64,000 bases of DNA, taken from NCBI GenBank assembly GCA_019637915.1, contig JAHBUV010000001.1:496001-560000 (forward strand), written 5' to 3'. The stretch is from Pseudobdellovibrionaceae bacterium. Lineage in GTDB: Bacteria; Bdellovibrionota; Bdellovibrionia; Bdellovibrionales; Bdellovibrionaceae. Under the pieces are notes generated by a model that was not told the origin of the DNA, did not search any database, and saw only the letters and a list, made by a program, of their open reading frames with translations. The position numbers and the translations under genes are program-made. This document shows positions 3,094 through 40,400 of the stretch, one piece after another. The number at the start of each line of letters is the position of its first letter. The first letter of the stretch is position 1.

Positions 3094-3321
3094 ATGTATA
3101 GTCTATCAATTAAACCGATGAAAGGTCTCATTACTTTGATGACCTTGATTTTAGGTGTGGGGTTTTTAAGTGGCTGTGGAACCACTCAATATAGTCGCGG
3201 GGAGTTTGGTGATACTAATAAAGTAAATCTCCTGAACGACAAGTTTACCGAAAGCACGGCTGAATTGTTGGCTAAGTCAGTAGTAGAACAATTTAAAACC
3301 TGTCCTACATTAACCCAATGA
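3094..3321 (+). CDS. LpoB-like lipoprotein, N-terminal half (split gene)
   Basis: 75 residues: a lipoprotein signal with lipobox LSGC near residues 25-28, then a short helix (FTESTAELLAKSVVEQF). LpoB family proteins have this order, with the helix directly followed by the globular domain. Here the frame stops at that junction and the globular domain continues in the -1 frame from the overlapping ATGA at 3318. Either the halves are translated separately by coupling, a ribosomal frameshift joins them, or a one-base change split a normal gene. Without joining, this half is a lipidated peptide only. Ribosome site AGGAGG. Confidence 0.65.
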   Translation: MYSLSIKPMKGLITLMTLILGVGFLSGCGTTQYSRGEFGDTNKVNLLNDKFTESTAELLAKSVVEQFKTCPTLTQ

Positions 3322-3719
3322 AACCTCTTCCGTTTGTGGCGATTGACCCTGATAAAGGGATTTCAAATCGCTCTGAAGAGCTTATTGACCTCGTTATGGT
3401 CTCTAATAAAATTAGAACCTCGCTGATTCGTTCAGGAAAATTCCGTTTCGTAGATGCAAGTTCCCGCAAATCTTTAGAGAGCGAATATCAATATAACGAA
3501 AGTGGTTCAGTAAGTGTGGGGAGCCGTAAATCAAGAGGTAATCAAATTGGTGCGGATTTACTTTTGAATGGTGAACTAACCTCAATCGTTCAACAAGCTG
3601 GGAAAGATAAAACCATCTATTATCAACTTGATGTTCAACTAATCAATGTAGAAACGGGAGCTATTGAGTGCACCGCTACTGAAAGTGCTCGTCCTGTATA
3701 TAAACTTCACCGGGAGTAA
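3318..3719 (+). CDS. LpoB-like globular domain (split gene, second half)
   Basis: 133 residues matching the penicillin-binding-protein activator LpoB domain: IRTSLIRSGKFRFVDAS, then GADLLLNGELTSI and a final strand with VETGAIECTA. LpoB in Enterobacteria is an outer-membrane lipoprotein that activates PBP1b in the periplasm. This frame has no signal peptide of its own and no clear ribosome site; it overlaps the preceding frame by four bases. Unless joined to the upstream half it would stay in the cytoplasm. The next gene starts two bases after its stop. Confidence 0.65.
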   Translation: MKPLPFVAIDPDKGISNRSEELIDLVMVSNKIRTSLIRSGKFRFVDASSRKSLESEYQYNESGSVSVGSRKSRGNQIGADLLLNGELTSIVQQAGKDKTIYYQLDVQLINVETGAIECTATESARPVYKLHRE

Positions 3720-3721
3720 CT

Positions 3722-4165
3722 ATGAGAGTAGTCGTAATAGTTAGTCTCATCATTACGGTATTATCGTTAACTTCCTGTGCTTCTCAACAAGCCAAGACGG
3801 TTGATGACGTTTATAAGCAGTATGGTTCTAAAGCCGTATATGAAAATCCTTATACCGCCGATCAAATCCAGTCCCAAGAAATTGAACGTCAACGCAAAGA
3901 GAATGAAAATATCAAAAGGGCCTTTAAAAAAGAACAAGAGCAAAACAGAATCTTACGCGAGAGTTTAAAACAACAAGAGACTAAACCAATTAAAGTTGCG
4001 CCTAAGGTTATTCCGAAAGAGGGAACAGAAACCCCGGAAGTTGTTTCAGTTGAGCAACCACAAGTTTCTCAAGCTCCAGAATCAACACCGACCCAGGCTC
4101 CAGTTAAAGCAAATTCTCCAGCATCTTTGGACTTGAACTTTTCTCAACCGATAATGGACAAGTAA
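3722..4165 (+). CDS. Coiled-coil lipoprotein
   Basis: 147 residues with a lipoprotein signal (lipobox LTSC, about residues 16-19), a charged coiled-coil from about residue 50 to 90 (QSQEIERQRKENENIKRAFK) and a Pro/Val/Thr-rich tail that could span the periplasm. It lies between the LpoB-like and COG3014-like genes and is almost certainly cotranscribed. LpoB-type operons elsewhere often include a small third lipoprotein; I cannot place this one in a named family. Confidence 0.65.
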   Translation: MRVVVIVSLIITVLSLTSCASQQAKTVDDVYKQYGSKAVYENPYTADQIQSQEIERQRKENENIKRAFKKEQEQNRILRESLKQQETKPIKVAPKVIPKEGTETPEVVSVEQPQVSQAPESTPTQAPVKANSPASLDLNFSQPIMDK

Positions 4166-4166
4166 A

Positions 4167-5321
4167 ATGAGATATCTTCTTTTAACCCTATTCTTAGTTG
4201 GTTGTGCGTCCGTTCCTAAAGGAATGAATGACTATCAACGGGATATGGCGATTAAAAGCGGTAGCTACGATGAAGTCTTGGAAGATATGGTGGCTAAAAA
4301 GCCTTTCGTAAAAGAAAAGGATTATCTTCTCCACCAACTAAACTACGCAATGGTTTTATATTATGACGGGAAGTATAAAGAAAGTAATGCCGTTTTCAGT
4401 GAGTGCCAACAATACATTGATTACGGTTCCGACTCAACTTCGGTGCAGCAAGCTACGGGTGTGGTTATAGACCCGTCAGCGAAAAAGTATCCCATTGATG
4501 AATATGAAATTTTAAGTATTTCTCTTTTTAAAATGTTGAATGCTCTTAATAGTGGAAACATTCAAAACGCCCAAGCTGAGAGTAGACGCTTAGAACGGGT
4601 AGGAAATCTTTTATCAGACACCCGAAAGTATAACCTCTTAGAAGAGACCGCATTTCATACTTACTTCTCAGGTATTATCTGGGAGAGTCAAAAGAGCGGG
4701 GATTGGTCCGCGTTAGACACGAGCTATGTTAATTACAAAAAGGCTTACAACTTTAAGAACAGGAAAATCCCATATCTCCCATTTGATTTAACTCGGTTAG
4801 CCGTTCAATTGAACCGACCAAACGATGTGGATTACTGGCAAAAACAATTTCCCTATGTCCCCAAAGAATATCCAGAACACATCAAACGTAAAGTTCCGTC
4901 TGGGGAGTTAATCATTATTTTCACCTACGGACTTGGTCCCCGTAAGACTGATGACCCCACAGGACCATTTGCGACCAAACTTTCTACGCGTTTTTCTACT
5001 GTTAATAACATTAAAATTACGGTGGACGATAAAGACTACGGCGAAACTTTTGAGGTCATGAGTTTTGATGACCTTGCTGAGGCTAATTATAAAAATAGAT
5101 ATTCAGGGGTAGTGGGAACTATCGGCAACGCCTTTGGAATGGGTTTTCACGACTATCGGACTTGGGAACTGTTACCTAAAGCTATCCAAATCGGGAGAGT
5201 TACTTTATCTCCAGGAACTCACGAAGTAATTTTAGAAGTTAGTCCCACCAGAATTGAAACCTACAAAGTTACCATTGAAAACGGTAAGAAATCCGTAATT
5301 CACATCAATCACCCCAACTAA
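4167..5321 (+). CDS. COG3014-like TPR-type lipoprotein
   Basis: 384 residues with a short signal and lipobox LVGC (about residues 10-13). The helical N-terminal half (YYDGKYKESNAVF, then LNSGNIQNAQAESRRLERV) and the C-terminal segment with GELIIIFTYGLGPRK fit the COG3014 family of uncharacterised lipoproteins, which is known to sit beside LpoB genes. Its start is one base after the previous stop, so the operon is 3094-5321. The likely place of action is the outer membrane or periplasm, with peptidoglycan synthesis as the likely context; both are inferred from the neighbours. Confidence 0.6.
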   Translation: MRYLLLTLFLVGCASVPKGMNDYQRDMAIKSGSYDEVLEDMVAKKPFVKEKDYLLHQLNYAMVLYYDGKYKESNAVFSECQQYIDYGSDSTSVQQATGVVIDPSAKKYPIDEYEILSISLFKMLNALNSGNIQNAQAESRRLERVGNLLSDTRKYNLLEETAFHTYFSGIIWESQKSGDWSALDTSYVNYKKAYNFKNRKIPYLPFDLTRLAVQLNRPNDVDYWQKQFPYVPKEYPEHIKRKVPSGELIIIFTYGLGPRKTDDPTGPFATKLSTRFSTVNNIKITVDDKDYGETFEVMSFDDLAEANYKNRYSGVVGTIGNAFGMGFHDYRTWELLPKAIQIGRVTLSPGTHEVILEVSPTRIETYKVTIENGKKSVIHINHPN

Positions 5322-5354: not shown

Positions 5355-6371
5355 ATGGGTGATAAAAGTTTTAACGATTTAACGGCATTAGAAAAATCAG
5401 CTATTTTGCTCCACACACTTGGACCGAAAGCTATGAAGATTATCTTTAAAGGTTTACCCGATAAAGAGATTAGGCAAATCCTCAACCAAATGGGAAAGAT
5501 TAATAAGGTTCCCGTGGGGATTGTGAATCAGGTTTTAAATGAATACTACACCAACATAAGTGAGATTGAGAACTATCTATTCTCCAACGATATTCTTAGC
5601 AGAGATAATCTAAAAGACGTTCTCGGAGAAGACCGTGCCCGAAATGTTTTAAGTGGATTGAGTCTCTCTGGGGATAACGGACCTAATTTGGAATCGTTAG
5701 AGATGGTGGACGCTAAAACCTTAGCTCACTATCTTTATAATGAACACCCACAAACCATAACCTTAATTGTAGCCCATCTTGGAAAAGATAAAAGAGCGAC
5801 TGTTCTTCAATTTCTCCCGAAAGCACTCCAGGGGGAAGTCATTCAACGCTTATCAAAATTAGAATCAGTAGATCCAGCCATCATAAAAAACTTAGATGAA
5901 ACTCTTAAAACCCAATTCGCTAATATCGCGGAAAACCCATCCAACAAATTAGGTGGTGTTCAATCTCTCATTGATATGTTCACGGGAATGGACCAAGAGC
6001 AAGCTAACCGAATGATTGAAGAGCTGGAACAACGCGACCCCATCTTAGCCGATAAGATTAAAAAGGAAATGTTCACTTACGAAGACCTCTTACGAATTCC
6101 AGACCGTTACTTCCAAACTCTATTGAGTAAGGTTGATGTCAAGGTCTTAGTGTTGAGTTTAAAAACCGCCAGTGAGGCCATTAAAAATAAGGTCTTTAGC
6201 AATATGTCAAAACGGGCGGTAGAAAACTTAAAAGATGAACTGTCGGGAGCTAAGCCAGTTCCCCGTAAAGATGTTGAAGAAGCCAAACAACAAATCGTGG
6301 CCTTAGCGTTAAAGTTAGAGGCTGATAAAGAAATTCAAATTAATCGCGGTGGGGAAGACGACCTGGTTTAA
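5355..6371 (+). CDS. fliG: Full-length flagellar motor switch protein FliG
   Basis: 338 residues, normal for FliG (about 330). All three domains are present: N domain (LTALEKSAILLHTLG onward, residues 8-100), middle domain with the FliM-binding EHPQT motif at 130-134 and a GG pair near 203, and C domain from about residue 230. The torque helix reads NMSKRAVENLKDEL; compared with E. coli it keeps the arginine and first aspartate, and has Glu for the second aspartate. FliG links the MS ring (FliF) to FliM and meets the stator. It is transcribed alone from its own leaderless-type promoter. A chromosomal fliG presumably exists elsewhere; its presence on this element is the oddity. Confidence 0.93.
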   Translation: MGDKSFNDLTALEKSAILLHTLGPKAMKIIFKGLPDKEIRQILNQMGKINKVPVGIVNQVLNEYYTNISEIENYLFSNDILSRDNLKDVLGEDRARNVLSGLSLSGDNGPNLESLEMVDAKTLAHYLYNEHPQTITLIVAHLGKDKRATVLQFLPKALQGEVIQRLSKLESVDPAIIKNLDETLKTQFANIAENPSNKLGGVQSLIDMFTGMDQEQANRMIEELEQRDPILADKIKKEMFTYEDLLRIPDRYFQTLLSKVDVKVLVLSLKTASEAIKNKVFSNMSKRAVENLKDELSGAKPVPRKDVEEAKQQIVALALKLEADKEIQINRGGEDDLV

Positions 6372-25673: not shown

Positions 25674-25791
25674 AAAGTCTCCTTAGGGGAGTAAATGGAT
25701 TTCAAATATTAAATTTAGTATATTTTAATGTATCAGACGAAATGCCGACCTATTAGATTTGGCTCTCATTCCATTTAGTTACTGATGAATT

Positions 25792-25819
25792 CTAAGAATC
25801 CATCAAAAAACCGGTATCA
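25792..25819 (+). promoter_or_regulatory. Bipartite element promoter of the switch operon
   Basis: CTAAG (25792-25796), 14 bases, CCGGTATCA (25811-25819); AGAGG ribosome site before the fliM start. Confidence 0.65.
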
Positions 25820-25835
25820 ATATATAGAGGATTTT

Positions 25836-26819
25836 ATGAATCAAGTTTTATCACAAAGTGAAGTGGATGCCTTATTGGCCGCCGTGGCTGAAGGGGAGCT
25901 TAAACAAGGAAAGCCTATGAAAAGAGAAAAAGACAATATCGTTCCCTACGACCTAACCAGTCAGGACAGACTCATTCGCGGACGACTACCGCAATTAGAC
26001 GTTATCTATGAAAGGTTAATGCGTTTATTTCGGGTCAGCTTAAGTAATCGCCTTCGTTCCATAGCCTCTGTTTGTATGACTTCAACAGAGTTTCTTAAGT
26101 TCGGTGAGTTCATCAACACATTACCAATTCCAACGATAATGACGGTAATTAGAGTTGAAGGTCTTCGCGGACCTTTTCTTTTGGTGACTCAAAGTAAACT
26201 GGCCTACGGGATTATTGATAAAATATTTGGTGGTGGTGGACGACCTTTTACGAAAATTGAAGGTAAGGAATTTACCAAGATTGAATTGTCCACGGTCAGA
26301 GAAATTGAAGATATCTTTATCAAAGATTTGAATCAGGCTTGGGAGAGTGTTTTTGATATTAAAGGCCAAACCTTCAGAACAGAAGTTAATCCCCAGTTCG
26401 TTGGTATTTGCCCACCAACTGATATTGTAATAGCGACCACCTTTGAGGTGGAATTAGAGAACCAAAGCGGCGTTATCACCCTCGTAGTCCCATATGGAAC
26501 TATTGAACCCATCAAAGAAAAATTATCCAATTGGTTTCAAATTTCCGACGCTGATAGCTCTTCGGCTGAAAAAGTTAAAGACGTTGCCCAATCAAATCTA
26601 CTGGCAACCAAAGCAGACTTAACAGTGATGTTAGGTCAAGTAGAAGTCCCTATCTCTACCTTGAGAAATCTAAAAGTAGGGGACGAATTGGTATTAAGCC
26701 AAAACGCTAATGACCCAATCGGTGGTTTTATTGATGGGAAAAAAGTTTTGGGCCTGAAGTATGAAATTTCGCCGAATAAAAGCCAAACAATCAAATTAAC
26801 CGTAATGGGAGGAAAATAG
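25836..26819 (+). CDS. fliM: Flagellar motor switch protein FliM
   Basis: 327 residues from the ATG at 25836; an in-frame ATG 17 codons earlier overlaps the promoter. The N-terminal peptide MNQVLSQSEVDALLAAV is the CheY-binding segment. The middle domain includes the conserved GGGGRPF (132-138) region of the FliG-binding face, and the last 75 residues form the FliN-like (SpoA) domain. Length is normal. In the motor it bridges FliG and FliN in the C ring and receives phospho-CheY. First gene of a four-gene operon; fliN starts one base after its stop. Confidence 0.93.
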   Translation: MNQVLSQSEVDALLAAVAEGELKQGKPMKREKDNIVPYDLTSQDRLIRGRLPQLDVIYERLMRLFRVSLSNRLRSIASVCMTSTEFLKFGEFINTLPIPTIMTVIRVEGLRGPFLLVTQSKLAYGIIDKIFGGGGRPFTKIEGKEFTKIELSTVREIEDIFIKDLNQAWESVFDIKGQTFRTEVNPQFVGICPPTDIVIATTFEVELENQSGVITLVVPYGTIEPIKEKLSNWFQISDADSSSAEKVKDVAQSNLLATKADLTVMLGQVEVPISTLRNLKVGDELVLSQNANDPIGGFIDGKKVLGLKYEISPNKSQTIKLTVMGGK

Positions 26820-26820
26820 T

Positions 26821-27078
26821 ATGAGTGAGAAAAATAAGGTTATCGCCAAAGAAGAGTTAGATAAGGTCCGAGTGTTAGCATCAGTAGAAGTTGGTCGTAG
26901 AAAAATCTCTGTTGGAGAACTGGCTGATTTATCTAAAGGTTCAGTTTTAGAACTAGACCGTTTAGCCGGGGAACCTTTGGATCTCTTTATCGGTGAGACA
27001 CTATTTGCCAAAGGTGAAGTAGTAGTTATCAACGAGAAGTTCGGAATTCGTATCACAGACATTATTAAAGGCGGGTAA
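26821..27078 (+). CDS. fliN: Flagellar motor switch protein FliN
   Basis: 85 residues comprising only the SpoA domain: VLASVEVGRRKISVGELADL, then GSVLELDRLAGEPLDLFIG and a final GEVVVINEKFGIRITDI. This is a compact FliN without a long N-terminal extension. FliN forms the base of the C ring with FliM and also helps dock export substrates. The next gene starts two bases after the stop. Confidence 0.92.
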   Translation: MSEKNKVIAKEELDKVRVLASVEVGRRKISVGELADLSKGSVLELDRLAGEPLDLFIGETLFAKGEVVVINEKFGIRITDIIKGG

Positions 27079-27079
27079 A

Positions 27080-28273
27080 GTGAACTCTAAACTATCTCCT
27101 CCATTGCTTAGGAATATTCCTGAAAGAGACTTGGCTAATTTTTTAGTCAACGAACACCCTCAGGTTATTGCCGTTATTCTTGCTCTATTAGAAGTAGAAA
27201 AACGCGGTCAGGTCTTAAAAAGACTTCCTGAAGAACTTCAAGCTGAAGCTATGATGCGTTTTGCTAACTTAGAATCCGTTGAGAAACCTTTGTTAGAAAA
27301 GGTTTGTTCTATATTAGAAAATGAACTCTATCAAAATCCCCATAATCTAGTTGATCTTGGTGGGGTCGTTAAGGTCGCTGAAACTCTTAACGGGCTAGAT
27401 AAGATGACCGAAAAAAGTATTATCTCCCGTATTGAAAGTCGTGATGTTCCTTTAGCTGACGAAATCAAAATGCTAATGTTCGTTTATGAAGACTTAATTC
27501 GTATTGATGTGCGCGGATTAAAGGTAATTTTCAATGAAGTCAGTAGGGAGACACTAATTGTTGCTCTTAAGACTACCCCAGAGATTCTAAAAACCAAAAT
27601 CCTAAGCTGTTTCTCTAATAGAGATAAGCAATGTATTGAGTCTGATTACAATGTTTTGGGTGTGGTTCGTTTGTGTGATGTTGAAACGGCTCAACAGACT
27701 ATTCTGAATACCGCTAAGCGATTAGAGGCGGAGGGTAAGATTTATTACGGTAGAGGTGGAGTAGAAGACCTTATCGTGGGCGGAGAACCGCTCCTAAGTC
27801 CTGACCTTGAGTCTTTATCAGAATTAGTTTTAGATGAAAAAATTAAAGAAGAAAGAAGTCGTCTAGCTGAATATGAAATTGTTCAGAACGACCTTCAAGA
27901 TTTGATGAAATACAAGAATGGTGTAGCGAAACTAATTCGTGAACATCCGCATTGCTTATCAAGCTTAACTGAAGCGGAAAGAAAACAGTATTCGGTAGCC
28001 CAATCCGATTCCGCAAGAGACATTAAATTCGTTCCCACAATTGACTCAGTAGAGGTTAAAACTAAAGCCGATAAAATTGAATATCTTAAAGCTCTACAAA
28101 AACAACTTGGTTTTTATGAGTTCGCTGAGGATGATATTGCGGACTTGAATTCTTATCGTGATTTATGGGTGAAACTGAATTCTCTAATTCAGACAGAGAC
28201 TCCCTCAGAAGAGAAAAGTCTTCTCCGCGAATTTGAAGAGTTTGTTAGAAGAAGTGGACATAAGAAATCATAG
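27080..28273 (+). CDS. FliG-like protein without N domain, with repeat extension
   Basis: 397 residues with a GTG start. Residues 10-235 match the FliG middle and C domains (EHPQV at 25-29 for FliM, GG near 95). The FliF-binding N domain of about 100 residues is absent. The torque helix reads CFSNRDKQCIESDYN, keeping the arginine and one of two acidic residues. From about 240 to 397 an extension holds two related helical repeats (EYEIVQNDLQDL and FYEFAEDDIADL), which recur in the next gene. It could be an altered rotor subunit that binds FliM but reaches a different partner through the extension. Confidence 0.85.
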   Translation: MNSKLSPPLLRNIPERDLANFLVNEHPQVIAVILALLEVEKRGQVLKRLPEELQAEAMMRFANLESVEKPLLEKVCSILENELYQNPHNLVDLGGVVKVAETLNGLDKMTEKSIISRIESRDVPLADEIKMLMFVYEDLIRIDVRGLKVIFNEVSRETLIVALKTTPEILKTKILSCFSNRDKQCIESDYNVLGVVRLCDVETAQQTILNTAKRLEAEGKIYYGRGGVEDLIVGGEPLLSPDLESLSELVLDEKIKEERSRLAEYEIVQNDLQDLMKYKNGVAKLIREHPHCLSSLTEAERKQYSVAQSDSARDIKFVPTIDSVEVKTKADKIEYLKALQKQLGFYEFAEDDIADLNSYRDLWVKLNSLIQTETPSEEKSLLREFEEFVRRSGHKKS

Positions 28274-28298
28274 TAGGCCACCCTTTATAAATTAGTCC

Positions 28299-28318
28299 TA
28301 AGACCCTGTTTTTACCTG
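28299..28318 (+). repeat. TAAGACCCTGTTTTT word, copy 6
   Basis: TAAGACCCTGTTTTTACCTG, identical over 20 bases to copy 1. Confidence 0.75.
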
Positions 28319-28321
28319 TGC

Positions 28322-28338
28322 TATAATTTGAGGTATCA
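28322..28338 (+). promoter_or_regulatory. TATAAT box overlapping a GGTATCA motif
   Basis: TATAAT at 28322-28327 and GAGGTATCA at 28330-28338, before the gene at 28359. It may combine a standard -10 with a weak element motif. Confidence 0.35.
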
Positions 28339-28358
28339 TTAGGTATAGGAAAAAGGGT

Positions 28359-28730
28359 ATGAGTTCTAATCTTGATAAAAATATTATTCTCTTAAAAGGA
28401 ACCTTAGAGGAATACGCTATCTTTGATAGTGACTTAATTTCCTTAGCCCGAAAGAAACAAGAAATATTAGGCTATGTGACCAGTCTTGGAAAAGACTTAG
28501 CAAGGGTTCTAACTCCCGATGAATTAGTCACCGTTCTCAAAATCAAACCGACTCAGGTTCCCGTAAAAGAGCCATTGATTATTCCATCGAATGAAGAAGA
28601 AAAGATTCAGCTCTTTGTTCAATTAAAAGCGCGGGTAGAGGCTTATCAAGAGTTTTCCGACGATTTAGCCGAACTTTCAGTCATCTCTAAAATTCACACG
28701 AAGCTAAAGCAAGTTTGTATCGCCAACTAA
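28359..28730 (+). CDS. Helical repeat protein related to the FliG-like extension
   Basis: 123 residues with two copies of the helical repeat seen in the C-terminal extension of the preceding FliG-like protein (EEYAIFDSDLISLA and EAYQEFSDDLAELS). It therefore is probably a binding partner or competitor for the same site. It has its own promoter candidate 85 bases after the FliG-like gene. The family is otherwise unknown. Confidence 0.6.
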   Translation: MSSNLDKNIILLKGTLEEYAIFDSDLISLARKKQEILGYVTSLGKDLARVLTPDELVTVLKIKPTQVPVKEPLIIPSNEEEKIQLFVQLKARVEAYQEFSDDLAELSVISKIHTKLKQVCIAN

Positions 28731-28774
28731 CCACCCATTATAAATTAACTCTCAAGAATTATTAATATTCGTGC

Positions 28775-28780
28775 TATACT
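28775..28780 (+). promoter_or_regulatory. TATACT -10 box, near-leaderless
   Basis: TATACT ends 10 bases before the ATG at 28791, which has no ribosome site. Confidence 0.4.
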
Positions 28781-28790
28781 TCTATGTATC

Positions 28791-29210
28791 ATGCCGAATT
28801 ATCAACGACTCCTATTCGTATATGGTTCGTTAAAGCGAGGACACTCTAATCACGACCGCATGACGCGTTATGGTGGGGTTTTCTTAGGCTCCGTAGAGAC
28901 CGTAGAAGGCTATGAGTTGCGTTTTCTACACCGAGGCATGGCTGGTGTAGCCACGATGACCAGAGCCCATTCTGGGACGGTTATAGGCGAACTTTATAGG
29001 GTTCCTGACATTAGACCCCTGAATGTCTTTGAAGGGCATCCTCATTATTACCGACTGGAACCAATAATTATTAAAAATGAGAATAATCAGACCAAAAAGG
29101 TGTGGGCCTATATCTTCCAAGAACTGACAAGTCTCAACGCTCGGGACTCTTCCTTGATTGTTGATGGATATTATCGGGAGCGGGATTGGATTTTTACTCG
29201 GAAAGGTTAG
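28791..29210 (+). CDS. Gamma-glutamylcyclotransferase-like (AIG2/GGCT) protein
   Basis: 139 residues opening LFVYGSLKRGHSNHDRM, the substrate-binding signature of the AIG2/GGCT fold, then VIGELYRVPDIRPLNVFEGH, also typical (the Glu of FEGH is the likely catalytic acid). Members cyclise gamma-glutamyl amines or peptides; the substrate here is unknown. It lies between the switch operon and the MoxR operon. No signal peptide, so cytoplasmic. Confidence 0.8.
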   Translation: MPNYQRLLFVYGSLKRGHSNHDRMTRYGGVFLGSVETVEGYELRFLHRGMAGVATMTRAHSGTVIGELYRVPDIRPLNVFEGHPHYYRLEPIIIKNENNQTKKVWAYIFQELTSLNARDSSLIVDGYYRERDWIFTRKG

Positions 29211-29251: not shown

Positions 29252-30391
29252 ATGGCAAAGACAAACAACACCGCAATCAAACTTCCAATTGACCAACTTA
29301 AAGAACTTATTATGGTCAAATTTAAACAAATGATCGCTAACCCCGAGATTAAAGTTCGTCCTATCTACATCGAAGGACACGCGGGGATTGGTAAGACACA
29401 AATCGTTCAGCAAGCCGCAAAGGAATTAACGGAAGAATTAAAGGTCCAACTCGGTGGAAAACCAGTTGAATGTCGCACAGTAAATCTTCAGTTTTGTGAG
29501 CGTCCCGATTTCATGGGTCTCGCCTTTGTTAATCCCAAGAATGAAACACAATTCGCGTCACCAATGCTTTTACCAAAAGAGGGTTTTGGTCTTTATTTCT
29601 TGGATGAAGCTAACCGCGTAGAATCAGAAATCCGTTCAGGTCTATTAACTCTTTTAGAAGACCGAAACGTGAACGGTCACAACATGGGTAAATATTGGTT
29701 ACCTATTTTAGCGGGCAACCCGTCTGAAACAGAAGCAGGAGAAGGAACGTATGAAGTTGGAGAGTTTGACTCCGCTTTAAAAGACCGTGTCGCTAAAGTG
29801 GTGATGGTCGGGGACATTATGAAAACCTTGGCTCACTTAGAACAAAAATATCCATCACATTTTTTAATTAATTATTTAAAATCTAATGTGGATTTTATTT
29901 CCTTCAAGGGTAACGGAATTAGTCCCCGGACATTTGAATACGCTATCAGGGCAACTTTGAACTACGACAAAATGGCTCCAGATTTAATTCAACGCATTTT
30001 GGGTTCAGAGCTTGGGGTGGAGGCGTCTCATAATATCATGCAAATGTTCAACTTGAGAGGAACGGCATCTTATCAACAAATCCGCACAGGAAACGTGGAC
30101 GCCTTTAAGTTCATTAAAGAGAACGCTAATCGTCACGACGTTATCACCGCTATCAATAGAGGATTTACGGCGGATGTATTCTCTCGTCACCAGAACAAGC
30201 AAAACTTCACGGTGGATGAGATTAAGTTCTTACGCATCTACATGAAGATGATTAAAGACGAATTCAAAGTTTCATTATTTAACGGGATTAACTCAAAAGA
30301 CACTGAGATTTGGTTTACTGAAACCTTCATCAAAGGAACTGAACTATACGACTTCGTGTTACGGGTCTTTAGCACTAAAAAGGTGGCCTAA
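29252..30391 (+). CDS. MoxR-type AAA+ ATPase
   Basis: 379 residues with Walker A GHAGIGKT (42-49) and Walker B YFLDEA (115-120), followed by a sensor segment LPILAGNPSE, as in MoxR/CbbQ/CobS-type ATPases. These act as chaperones that remodel or insert metals into partner complexes, usually together with a VWA protein. The VWA partner gene overlaps its stop by TAATG. Transcript probably leaderless. Such pairs are also known from large phages and plasmids. Confidence 0.85.
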   Translation: MAKTNNTAIKLPIDQLKELIMVKFKQMIANPEIKVRPIYIEGHAGIGKTQIVQQAAKELTEELKVQLGGKPVECRTVNLQFCERPDFMGLAFVNPKNETQFASPMLLPKEGFGLYFLDEANRVESEIRSGLLTLLEDRNVNGHNMGKYWLPILAGNPSETEAGEGTYEVGEFDSALKDRVAKVVMVGDIMKTLAHLEQKYPSHFLINYLKSNVDFISFKGNGISPRTFEYAIRATLNYDKMAPDLIQRILGSELGVEASHNIMQMFNLRGTASYQQIRTGNVDAFKFIKENANRHDVITAINRGFTADVFSRHQNKQNFTVDEIKFLRIYMKMIKDEFKVSLFNGINSKDTEIWFTETFIKGTELYDFVLRVFSTKKVA

Positions 30392-31746
30392 TGAGTACGC
30401 CTAGCTATCAAGAGCAATATGAGTTCTTATTTGCCAGAGCTATGAATGCTTTGATGGCTGAGGCCCCGTTTTACTATGCGGTCTTTCAACGGATTGATAG
30501 GTTCCATAGTGAGTATTTGGATTGTGCGGCCTGTGTAGGTTTTAACTCTCGTCAAAACCGAATTGAGATGTGGTTTAATCCTAAAATTCTTCACAAACTA
30601 CCTGAAGATGATTTTATTGCCGTGATTGAACATGAACTGCTTCACGTTTGTTTTAATCACTTGAACATTCAAAGAGAACAGAAGTTTGACCGCCATATTT
30701 ATAATATCGCCTGTGATTACATCATCAACGACAATATTCCCCGGATTGTAAAACAGTACCCGAAGTTAGAGCGGAAAGAGTATGCGGAGAAAAGTTTCTT
30801 TGGGAATACTTGCTTGGCTCCTCAATTAAGATGGATTCCCGAATTAAAGAACCGTCGTATTGCCGATATGACCTCTATTGAACTTTACAAAATTCTTTCT
30901 AAATTTACTAAAATTGTTCAACTCATTAAAACCACTGATGGTCACGTTTCTGGATTAGGCGAAGGTAAAGGTTTTGGTGAAGTAGAAGTGAATGTTAATT
31001 TACCGAATTTAGGTAAAGGGGAAAATGGGGAACCTATTCAAGGTAAAGGCGAAGGCGAAAAGTTCCCGTTGGAATCTCTTAACGAAGAGTCCCAGCAAAT
31101 TATTGATGAGATTTTAAAAGAAACCGCCCAAGAGTTTGAGCGCACAAAACAAAGTCTGGGGAGAATGTCTAACAGCTTGGAGATGAGAATTAAAGAACTC
31201 TCTAAGCCAGTGATTAACTATAAACTTCTCATTCAACGGTTTGCTACCGCTTCCGCTCGGGAGATTAAGAAGAATAAAACCTGGAGTCGTAGAAACCGTA
31301 AGTATCCTAACCAATCCAAAGGTAAGAAGAGAAAGATTAAACCTAAATTCTTAATCTGGGTTGATACGTCTGGCTCTATGTGGAGTCCCGAACTAATGGA
31401 CTGTATTAACTCAGAGATTAAGGGCTTGTGGGATATGAGCCGTAATATCTTCGTCGTTCTAGGGGACACCAAAGAGACTGGAAGAATTGATTTAAGCAAG
31501 GTGCAGAACTTTACCGCCGAAACTATTACCTTTATTGGTGGTGGTGGGACGAATTGTGATTGGATTTGGGCCGTAGCTAAAGAACTACGTGTGGATGGAA
31601 TCATTTGCCACACTGACGGCTACATCGGTCGGGTTACGCCACCTAATGAACACGGTATTAAAACTTTATTCGTTATCCACAATAACGGAGACGATGTTCC
31701 CGGATACGAGAACATTAGAATCCACAAAGGTGCGGTGATTGGATAA
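30391..31746 (+). CDS. VWA protein with metallopeptidase-like domain (COG3864 type)
   Basis: 451 residues. The N-terminal domain contains HELLH (81-85) followed by H90, a zinc-site pattern of the DUF2201-type putative metallopeptidase. The C-terminal domain is VWA-like with the MIDAS sequence DTSGSM near 324 and a Gly-rich loop (FIGGGGTNCDW). This is the expected partner of the upstream MoxR ATPase. Peptidase activity has not been shown for the family in general. The next gene starts at its stop. Confidence 0.8.
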   Translation: MSTPSYQEQYEFLFARAMNALMAEAPFYYAVFQRIDRFHSEYLDCAACVGFNSRQNRIEMWFNPKILHKLPEDDFIAVIEHELLHVCFNHLNIQREQKFDRHIYNIACDYIINDNIPRIVKQYPKLERKEYAEKSFFGNTCLAPQLRWIPELKNRRIADMTSIELYKILSKFTKIVQLIKTTDGHVSGLGEGKGFGEVEVNVNLPNLGKGENGEPIQGKGEGEKFPLESLNEESQQIIDEILKETAQEFERTKQSLGRMSNSLEMRIKELSKPVINYKLLIQRFATASAREIKKNKTWSRRNRKYPNQSKGKKRKIKPKFLIWVDTSGSMWSPELMDCINSEIKGLWDMSRNIFVVLGDTKETGRIDLSKVQNFTAETITFIGGGGTNCDWIWAVAKELRVDGIICHTDGYIGRVTPPNEHGIKTLFVIHNNGDDVPGYENIRIHKGAVIG

Positions 31747-32597
31747 TGGAAGTCAGTTATCGGGAGATTATGCAAGATGCGATGTCAGCACTACAACGGA
31801 GAAGAACCGTTGATCCTATTATTGATTTACCACAATTAGAAAAAGTCATTACTTTACGCCAAGTTTTACTTAGAGGTTACCCAACCGATATTATTGAGGC
31901 CCGTAAGGTTTTTAAATCCACATATTTCACCATCGGTGACGAAGAGATGGTAGGGCACTTTAAAAGTCTCTACGCTAACCCCGATTTCTTCCGCCACTTA
32001 GATAGACTCTACTTGGACTACTTTCGGGGAAATACAATTGGTCGCCAACTTACTAAAGATTTTAATGAAGATGATGGGCCACCAACTCAAGCTATATTAA
32101 CTGAACTAAAACGAGTTCGGTCGGACTTACATCATCACTTGGATATGACATTAATGGATTTACGAAACCGAAATATGCGAGTTTTGTTCCTCCAAGTTAA
32201 CTACTATATTCAGCTTTGCCAATATCTCCACAACCGCTTTAAATCAAAGTTTGGTGTCTATGAAGATTATGAGGGAAATAAGTTCTTTTACACGAACGGA
32301 GTTCTTCATAGAAACAGCGGACCATCTATTGTCTACGGGGACGGGTTGAGTGCGGAGTATTGGTGGGACGGGACAAAGTATTCTAACGGGGTTCATTTCT
32401 CCTGTTTAATTGCCAGTGAAGTAGAACCTAAAATTGAATGGCCTCGTTATTTCAAATATATTCCCGAAGAGGAAGAAATCCGGGAACAAGAAATCAAAGA
32501 GAAGCAAAGACGCGAAAAGGCGAAGCAAGATAAGATATTTGATTTAGCCGGTCTCAATCCCATTTCCGCCGCTTTTAAAAGAGCTTGTGGTGTTTAA
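31746..32597 (+). CDS. Unknown protein, third gene of the MoxR operon
   Basis: 283 residues, coupled to the VWA gene by TAATG. The N-terminal half is helical; FFYTNGVLHRNSGPSIVYGDG in the middle resembles a MORN-like strand repeat; the end is a charged helix rich in Glu, Lys and Arg. It may be the substrate or adaptor of the MoxR-VWA pair, because third genes in such operons often are, but no family was recognised. Confidence 0.55.
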   Translation: MEVSYREIMQDAMSALQRRRTVDPIIDLPQLEKVITLRQVLLRGYPTDIIEARKVFKSTYFTIGDEEMVGHFKSLYANPDFFRHLDRLYLDYFRGNTIGRQLTKDFNEDDGPPTQAILTELKRVRSDLHHHLDMTLMDLRNRNMRVLFLQVNYYIQLCQYLHNRFKSKFGVYEDYEGNKFFYTNGVLHRNSGPSIVYGDGLSAEYWWDGTKYSNGVHFSCLIASEVEPKIEWPRYFKYIPEEEEIREQEIKEKQRREKAKQDKIFDLAGLNPISAAFKRACGV

Positions 32598-39132: not shown

Positions 39133-40200
39133 TTATTGCCCTATTATTTTCTGAACCACACTAACTTCGTCAGTAGTCATATCATAGCCAGCGTAATATT
39201 CTTCGGTGGTCTTAATGCTATCACCAATAAGCTTGGCGACACGGTCAAGGGGAACGCCCTTACCAAGAAGATGAATACAATATGAGTGCCTGAGAGAGTG
39301 TGGGCTGATTTGTTTCTTAGCTAGTTTAAAACTCTTGCGGGCGGCATTGATTAGAGGATGTTGGCAACACTTCCGCCATTCTTCTTTATCTTCAACGGCG
39401 GCCCATTCTTCAAAACCCTTTTTACAGATGTCTAACAGAACAGTGTGATGGTTCTTTGAGTTTTTCAGGCCTCGGATTTTTAGGTTCTTATCCATTTGTT
39501 GGGAAACGTAGATACTACCGTTCTTTTTCAAACTATCCGAATCAATCATGAAGGCTTCGCCCAAACGCATCCCGGTGCCAAAGAGAGTGATATACAGAGC
39601 TTTGAGTTCTGGGGATTCTACATGATTTAAAATTTTCTGGAGTTCTTCAAAGGTAACGAACTTAACTTCTTTGTGAGGTCTTTTCTTGCGATGGAGGATG
39701 AATGGTCTTCCCAAGAACTTAAGCAAAGAATTAACTCTGGTCGTATAGCGTTTGTGACCGGTGCTATCCCAGGCGGCATCGACTTTTTTCTGAAGTTCCA
39801 ATTTAGAGGCTGACGCCAGCGGTAGTGGGTCAATACCTTTCATAGCGACCAGAAACTCACGCTCAGCGGTTTCGGGAGAGACAATATCACGGCCAATGTA
39901 ATCACGTTCCCAGAGCTTTTCAAAAGTCTTATAATTGGCTTTTAATATTTGGTCGCGGATGTGGGCTTTTTCTTGAGAGAGACCGGCCTCTCTTCGGAGA
40001 GTATCAACGAGTAGCTTAACTTGGATGAGGGCTTGTTCTTCGGTGAGTAGACCAGCGAGGAAATTAGAATTGATAGAGTTTAAACGCTCGTCTTTGATTT
40101 GCGGCTGAAGTGGTTTGCCGACTTTCTGATAAATCTTTTTGTGTATGGCAAAGGTTCTCCGACCGTGGGTCGGTTTCTTTACCGTGAAGCCGTAGTTCAT
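39133..40200 (-). CDS. int: Tyrosine-type integrase
   Basis: 355 residues from the ATG at 40200 (GGAG ribosome site); a start at 40221 is possible. Catalytic motifs: FGTGMRLGEAF (Arg I), HSLRHSYCIHLLGKG (H-x-x-R) and TTEEYYAGY with the Tyr nucleophile. An N-terminal basic segment and SAM-like core-binding region are present, so this is a full-length integrase. It lies 116 bases from the 3' end of the tRNA-Leu, the normal place for the integrase of an element inserted at a tRNA gene. Confidence 0.85.
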   Translation of the reverse strand: MNYGFTVKKPTHGRRTFAIHKKIYQKVGKPLQPQIKDERLNSINSNFLAGLLTEEQALIQVKLLVDTLRREAGLSQEKAHIRDQILKANYKTFEKLWERDYIGRDIVSPETAEREFLVAMKGIDPLPLASASKLELQKKVDAAWDSTGHKRYTTRVNSLLKFLGRPFILHRKKRPHKEVKFVTFEELQKILNHVESPELKALYITLFGTGMRLGEAFMIDSDSLKKNGSIYVSQQMDKNLKIRGLKNSKNHHTVLLDICKKGFEEWAAVEDKEEWRKCCQHPLINAARKSFKLAKKQISPHSLRHSYCIHLLGKGVPLDRVAKLIGDSIKTTEEYYAGYDMTTDEVSVVQKIIGQ

Positions 40201-40303
40201 TTGCCATCTCCAAAGTGCCAACCTTTCGTCGGTTCACCATATAAATAAGATCGGCAAATTCTCTCGCTTCCTTTAATTCGTCAATACTCAAAACACTAGC
40301 CAT
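40064..40303 (-). CDS. Small overlapping ORF before the integrase
   Basis: 79 residues from an ATG preceded by AAGGA. Only the first 30 or so residues (MASVLSIDELKEAREFADLI) lie outside the integrase gene; the rest overlaps it in another frame. It could be a short leader peptide coupling integrase translation, an excisionase-type protein, or the original integrase N terminus cut off by a frameshift. Confidence 0.3.
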   Translation of the reverse strand: MASVLSIDELKEAREFADLIYMVNRRKVGTLEMANELRLHGKETDPRSENLCHTQKDLSESRQTTSAANQRRAFKLYQF

Positions 40304-40315
40304 AAGTCCTTAAAG

Positions 40316-40400
40316 TGGTGCGCAAGAGGGGACTCGAACCCCTAATCCTTTCGGAACACGCCCCTCAAACGTGCGCGTATACCAATTCCGCCACTTGCGC
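40316..40400 (-). tRNA. tRNA-Leu (anticodon GAG), complete
   Basis: 85 bases with acceptor GCGCAAG/CTTGCGC, a D arm (GGCGGAATTGGTATACGC), anticodon loop TTTGAGG, a variable arm (TTCCGAAAGGA), T arm AGGGGTTCGAGTCCCCT and an encoded CCA. It resembles bacterial tRNA-Leu and appears functional. Its 3' end faces the integrase. Confidence 0.9.

Follow-up and report, generated by a model that had tools for sequence, protein, structure and literature searches.

In Bacillus subtilis, swimming is stopped by the EpsE clutch, which the cited passages describe as a soluble, glycosyltransferase-like protein that acts on the rotor, does not copy any motor part and is encoded in the eps operon of that same bacterium (PMC3000366). 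The prophage FRphi exemplifies a mobile element that changes the flagellum of its host; its target is flagellin, reached via an RNA-guided regulator, and no rotor or stator copies are named in the passages cited (PMC13418256). The diversified C-ring of Campylobacter jejuni, as portrayed in the cited part of its description, has an enlarged set of components, which are core parts of that bacterium's own motor (PMC6946799). The locus described here also enlarges the set of C-ring components, but does so from a mobile element that carries copies and derivatives of rotor and stator parts; EpsE, which is alike in principle, and FRphi may be regarded as precedents of kind only. At its center is a FliG homologue that lacks the FliF-binding domain and bears a C-terminal extension, apparently taken from a membrane protein whose gene tracks flagella.

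An integrated element with motor genes

The window, the whole stretch of 64,000 nucleotides that was analyzed, comprises bases 496001-560000 of contig C1 in a genome of 3.32 Mb. Relatives that share a chromosomal marker motif with this genome belong to Bdellovibrionota, B. bacteriovorus among them, and we accordingly regard the host as a Bdellovibrionaceae-type bacterium. Over most of window positions 1-40300, and for a further ~72 kb leftward, GC content is 37-42%, against ~62% in the surrounding chromosome. The AT-rich stretch stops at a tRNA-Leu(GAG) gene (40316..40400, minus strand), the insertion site, which adjoins a tyrosine integrase gene at the element's end (39133..40221, minus strand; PHROG integrase 6e-22; Pfam 7e-14). 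An imperfect 27-bp copy of the 3′ end of the tRNA (40316-40342), 89% identical and in the same orientation, marks the far boundary at C1:424278-424304. Integrase, tRNA site and flanking repeat together identify this stretch of ~112 kb, with 39% GC, as an integrative mobile element. Its genes, called mechanically as open reading frames without a trained gene finder, include those for a DNA polymerase, a primase-like protein, FtsK-like ATPases, SSB-like proteins and an Mrr nuclease; the scan, which covered part of the element's proteins, recognized nothing of a capsid, terminase or conjugation apparatus. A search for sister elements via the primase returned none in 148 relatives except one partial 35% match, and none in viral contigs.

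Several other features of the element are recorded here. A 14-bp motif, TAAGACCCTGTTTT, occurs in 31 copies with at most two mismatches (16 exact) across C1:424278-536342, where 0.3 are expected from shuffled sequence; copies lie, for instance, at window positions 2932, 24550 (minus strand), 28299 and 36989 (minus strand), some upstream of genes and others within them. A CdaA-like diadenylate cyclase is also present (L009:13100-13771, minus strand; TIGR00159, E=1e-40), so the element may make c-di-AMP. A MoxR-like ATPase and a metallopeptidase/VWA-like protein, a pair with phage-family matches, occupy window positions 29252-32597.

The sequence-only reading had seen in the extended FliG a rewired rotor component. 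Its gene is not the host's own rotor gene, however: the chromosome encodes FliF, FliG, FliM, FliN and the export apparatus away from the element, and the extended FliG is cargo of the element, alongside further derivatives of motor parts. Host FliG (C1:1427334) is 50% identical to the extended FliG and host FliM (C1:1376530), which FliN adjoins, 57% identical to the element's FliM. FliF exists as a single chromosomal copy, and a search of the genome found none on the element.

A FliG without its anchor

The element's FliM, FliN and FliG-like genes are consecutive and separated by 1-nt gaps, which bears out the rotor-related context that had been read from the sequence. FliM (25785..26819, plus strand; Pfam FliM, E=4.4e-55) passes its NCBIfam model (TIGR01397, 262.2 bits versus a cutoff of 219.6) and, aligned to host FliM, keeps both the CheY/FliN-binding N-terminal peptide LSQSEVDALL and the glycine-rich FliG-binding loop (FGGGG). 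FliN (26821..27078, plus strand) consists of 85 residues with the C-terminal domain only (Pfam FliMN_C, E=2e-23) and also passes its model (TIGR02480, 86.7 bits versus 84.05). The third gene (27080..28273, plus strand) encodes a 397-residue fusion of FliG_M and FliG_C with a C-terminal extension at residues ~240-397.

Canonical FliG is represented by TIGR00207 and by the Pfam domains PF14842, PF14841 and PF01706. The fusion resembles it in having the M and C domains (FliG_M, PF14841, E=2.8e-20; FliG_C, PF01706, E=9.1e-31), an EHPQ motif at residue 25 of FliG_M, the charges of the torque helix, and FliM and FliN next door. It differs in lacking FliG_N, in carrying a 158-residue extension of the YEIIS type described below, in its location on a mobile element, and in scoring under the NCBIfam equivalog cutoff (189.6 versus 226.7 bits). 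That the FliF-binding domain is missing, as the sequence-only reading had proposed, withstood each comparison. Pfam returned for FliG_N only a sub-cutoff match that overlaps the M domain (23.8 versus 25 bits). Alignments to FliG structures in the PDB span residue 10-11 to 232 of the fusion, which indicates that the domain is absent. With the FliN stop codon at 27078 and the FliG GTG at 27080, there is no room upstream for a hidden N-domain. Within FliG_C, comparison with host and T. maritima FliG shows four of the five charges kept (K164, R181, D189 and R197), with Ser replacing Asp at position 188. We take the four retained residues to be the equivalents of E. coli K264, R281, D289 and R297, and the changed position that of D288. 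Among these, the cited passage has FliG D289/R281 contacted by MotA R90/E98 (PMC7564593). The fusion is known from one genome; no other FliG fusion was found in 141 genomes of the order, nor by a peptide scan of genome contigs.

An extension drawn from a flagellum-linked membrane protein

In the genome search, the extension matched a chromosomal protein at C1:1003258 (L014:7767-9275, minus strand). We refer to it as the YEIIS protein, a working name for a single-TM coiled-coil protein of Bdellovibrionota. It has a single TM segment, a coiled coil containing LEARLAEYEIISEDIADLSFYKEENARL and a stretch of low complexity, its tail reads LMNQFENFVKKG, and no model in Pfam or NCBIfam matches the protein. 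Orthologues are found across the order in a conserved gene order of dihydroorotase-like gene, YEIIS and HEAT-repeat protein, and B. bacteriovorus has the protein (L189).

The 158-residue extension shares with this protein a 38-residue motif, YEIIxEDIADLxxYKEEN, and an LxxEFExFV tail; it differs in that the motif occurs twice, no TM segment is present (maximum hydropathy of the whole fusion 1.51), and FliG is fused to it. The first repeat occupies residues 252-289 (27833..27946, plus strand) and the second residues about 333-370 (28079..28189, plus strand). Behind them lies LLREFEEFVRR (28220..28252, plus strand), resembling the LMxEFENFVKK tail of YEIIS proteins; the pattern of the fusion's last residues, LLREFEEFVRRS, occurs once in the island proteome, where 0.017 are expected. 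A profile built from 12 chromosomal YEIIS proteins, devoid of island sequence and with E-values scaled to 3300 proteins, finds the extension at E=1.5e-12 as two domains, and each repeat individually at E=2.8e-7 and E=5.4e-5, respectively. The host YEIIS motif alone, searched against the whole genome, recovers both repeats (E=1.5e-6 and 0.025). Judged by these matches, the extension repeats are certainly YEIIS motifs, and, with profile match and tail taken together, the extension is the cytoplasmic portion of a YEIIS-type protein, relieved of its TM segment and joined to FliG_MC. The two-repeat architecture at residues 240-397 thus agrees with what had been read from the sequence, whereas the description of the repeat domain as new gives way: Bdellovibrionota already have it in a conserved membrane protein encoded on the chromosome. 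An AlphaFold2 model of FliG with the extension had a mean pLDDT of 57 and was poor for the extension.

The distribution of the YEIIS gene points to flagella. Across 148 genomes, FliM was found in 125, FliG in 120 and YEIIS in 117. Taking as flagellated the 128 genomes in which FliM or FliG was found, and the other 20 as non-flagellated, YEIIS is present in 116 of the former and in a single one of the latter (G067), and most exceptions are incomplete genomes. As a control, a lipoprotein gene near YEIIS persists in 16 of these 20 non-flagellated genomes (two outgroups at E~2e-4 only). When only genomes with the control gene are counted, YEIIS accompanies 112/114 flagellated versus 1/16 non-flagellated genomes (Fisher p 1.3e-16, a value that ignores shared ancestry); most of the non-flagellated genomes belong to one family (f4, about ten genera) and one to another (f2). 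Reduction of genome size was considered as the reason for the loss of YEIIS and set aside, the nearby gene being mostly retained in those genomes. A flagellar role of the YEIIS protein is therefore a supported prediction, and because its gene tracks flagella, the FliG fusion would join two motor-linked modules.

The neighboring 123-residue protein and a shared upstream block

Downstream of the fusion, a gene at 28359..28730 (plus strand) encodes a 123-residue helical protein in which the sequence-only reading had recognized the same repeats, again twice. The island-free YEIIS profile does detect it, aligning both repeats at E=0.027 and ranking it second among 145 island proteins, the next following at E=18. 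Direct comparison with the extension agrees (BLASTP E=0.016, both repeats co-linear), and the Smith-Waterman score is 59, which 7 of 5000 shuffles attain, with the best Z among island proteins. AlphaFold2 predicts an all-helical protein (pLDDT 82), Foldseek returned nothing meaningful for it (best E-value 0.77), and no TM segment is present (maximum hydropathy 0.88). Similarity between extension and small protein is thus detectable by profile and both repeats are matched; the kinship itself is probable rather than proven, and the 123-residue protein is probably a diverged stand-alone copy of the extension.

In front of this gene lies a 69-nt intergenic block (28278..28346, plus strand) with an extended -10-like element, TGCTATAAT. 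A diverged copy (68%) follows at 28731..28792 (plus strand), upstream of 28791, and a copy 91% identical precedes the gene at C1:463246, which encodes the FliM-peptide protein discussed below. The close match before both genes is a sign of shared control of the C1:463246 gene and the 123-residue gene. The repeated blocks had prompted the idea that the small gene arose by tandem duplication of the 3′ end of FliG; this is weakened by the better copy 60 kb away, which favors interpreting the block as shared regulatory sequence.

Further motor-part derivatives

The element holds three FliG derivatives. Besides the fusion, there is a full-length paralogue (5355..6371, plus strand) with N, M and C domains, which passes TIGR00207 (258.5 versus 226.7 bits). 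Directly before it, at window positions 3318-5321, are genes for an LpoB-like protein and then for two lipoprotein-like products. The third derivative is a MotA-FliG_C chimera of 292 residues (C1:465521-466399; L009:5521-6399, minus strand), of which residues 1-67 resemble positions 81-147 of the MotA profile, residues ~83-124 resemble MotA 241-281, and residues 182-292 match FliG 228-338; MotA genes on plasmids confirm the MotA segments. The alignment includes none of MotA's four TM segments, and maximum hydropathy is 1.36. Read from its sequence, the chimera is a predicted soluble join of both sides of the stator–rotor contact. The start of the chimera is abutted by an IS21-type insertion (L009:6399-8912) that has inverted repeats of 54 bp and a GCAT duplication, and a short in-frame piece lies beyond the insertion; since the gene is interrupted, the chimera may be inactive. 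A phage family of unknown function in PHROGs, phrog_21194, matches the MotA loop at chimera residues 3-71 (E=3e-8), and some phage proteins may on this similarity be MotA-like.

A 265-residue protein (C1:463246-464043, minus strand) ends in LTQEEVDDLLSG, which is like the N-terminal peptide of FliM. The island proteome contains the FliM-peptide pattern two times, in this protein and in FliM itself, against an expectation of 0.006.

Identity of the three FliG derivatives to host FliG is 44-54%, versus 32-36% to each other, and this greater proximity to the host suggests separate capture; the FliG tree has long branches. A phage origin of the FliG and FliM genes was considered and dropped, there being no relatives in viral contigs, and no relatives of the FliG protein at a coverage of at least 80% occur in phage or plasmid records.

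Proposed motor-interface mimicry and its alternatives

Directly observed are domain content, conserved contact residues, loss of anchors, the origin of the extension, the co-occurrence of YEIIS with flagella and the location on an element; from these, we infer binding, recruitment and an effect on swimming. The element proteins would mimic the surfaces through which motor parts make contact on the cytoplasmic side, namely FliG_M, which binds FliM, FliG_C, which binds the stator, the cytoplasmic segments of MotA, FliM with its N-terminal peptide, which binds CheY-P and FliN, and FliN itself. Through its YEIIS motifs, the anchorless FliG is probably recruited at the base of the flagellum, either to the YEIIS membrane protein or to a partner of that protein; competing with the host's rotor subunits or capping them there, it would slow, stop or retune the motor. 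Several of the proteins retain contact surfaces and have lost what would hold them in place, the FliF-binding domain in the extended FliG and the membrane segments in the MotA chimera, and the FliM peptide occurs bare; this combination fits competition with host subunits. We prefer the reading that, through interface mimicry, the element interferes with the host motor or retunes it, with confidence evenly balanced between belief and doubt.

The main competitor, which we consider unlikely, is replacement: the element's FliG, FliM and FliN would assemble into a functional C-ring, or enter one, whose output is altered, with the anchorless FliG as an adaptor or outer-ring subunit that its extension keeps in place. 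The passing of NCBIfam cutoffs by full-length FliG, FliM and FliN and their retained contact residues speak for it, and the full-length FliG at 5355, which keeps its anchor domain, appears to fit replacement as well as it fits interference. A prophage that remodels the host flagellum to advantage is also known, as the cited passages relate (PMC13418256). Yet a soluble MotA-FliG_C chimera and a free FliM peptide fit no working ring, and the element brings no FliF of its own. Lower still we rate the view that these are captured genes decaying without present function, to which the IS21 copy at the start of the chimera gene and the want of sister copies of the FliG fusion would be congenial; against it, FliM, FliN, the extended FliG and the full FliG are intact reading frames with key motifs kept at ~50% divergence, and the 1-nt gene spacing and the shared 69-nt upstream block are hard to square with decay. 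Least probable, in our judgment, is a use outside the motor, with C-ring and YEIIS modules serving as a scaffold or polar tether for replication, partition or transfer of the element. YEIIS proteins do look like membrane-tethered coiled-coil landmarks, and the element encodes a polymerase, a primase and FtsK-like ATPases of its own, but the conserved stator- and CheY-contact residues would have no obvious role there. Interference accordingly stays ahead of replacement, relics and non-motor use.

A wider form of the interference reading is offered tentatively, and with somewhat less confidence than interference itself: the element would be an arsenal of anchor-stripped interface copies (FliM-FliG, FliG-MotA, FliM peptide-CheY/FliN and YEIIS) controlling the host motor, and the YEIIS protein would be an undescribed component of the motor or flagellar pole in Bdellovibrionota. 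If true, a mobile element steers the swimming motor of its host through copies of that motor's contact surfaces, for which we know of no precedent. The FliG fusion would moreover act as a Rosetta stone which, together with the phyletic pattern, points to a so far unannotated membrane protein as a probable part of the flagellum.

Proteins consisting of FliG_C only, 142-148 residues long and chromosomally encoded, occur in seven other Bdellovibrionales genomes (L143-L149), where their genes, in the stretches inspected, lie at a distance from flagellar genes.
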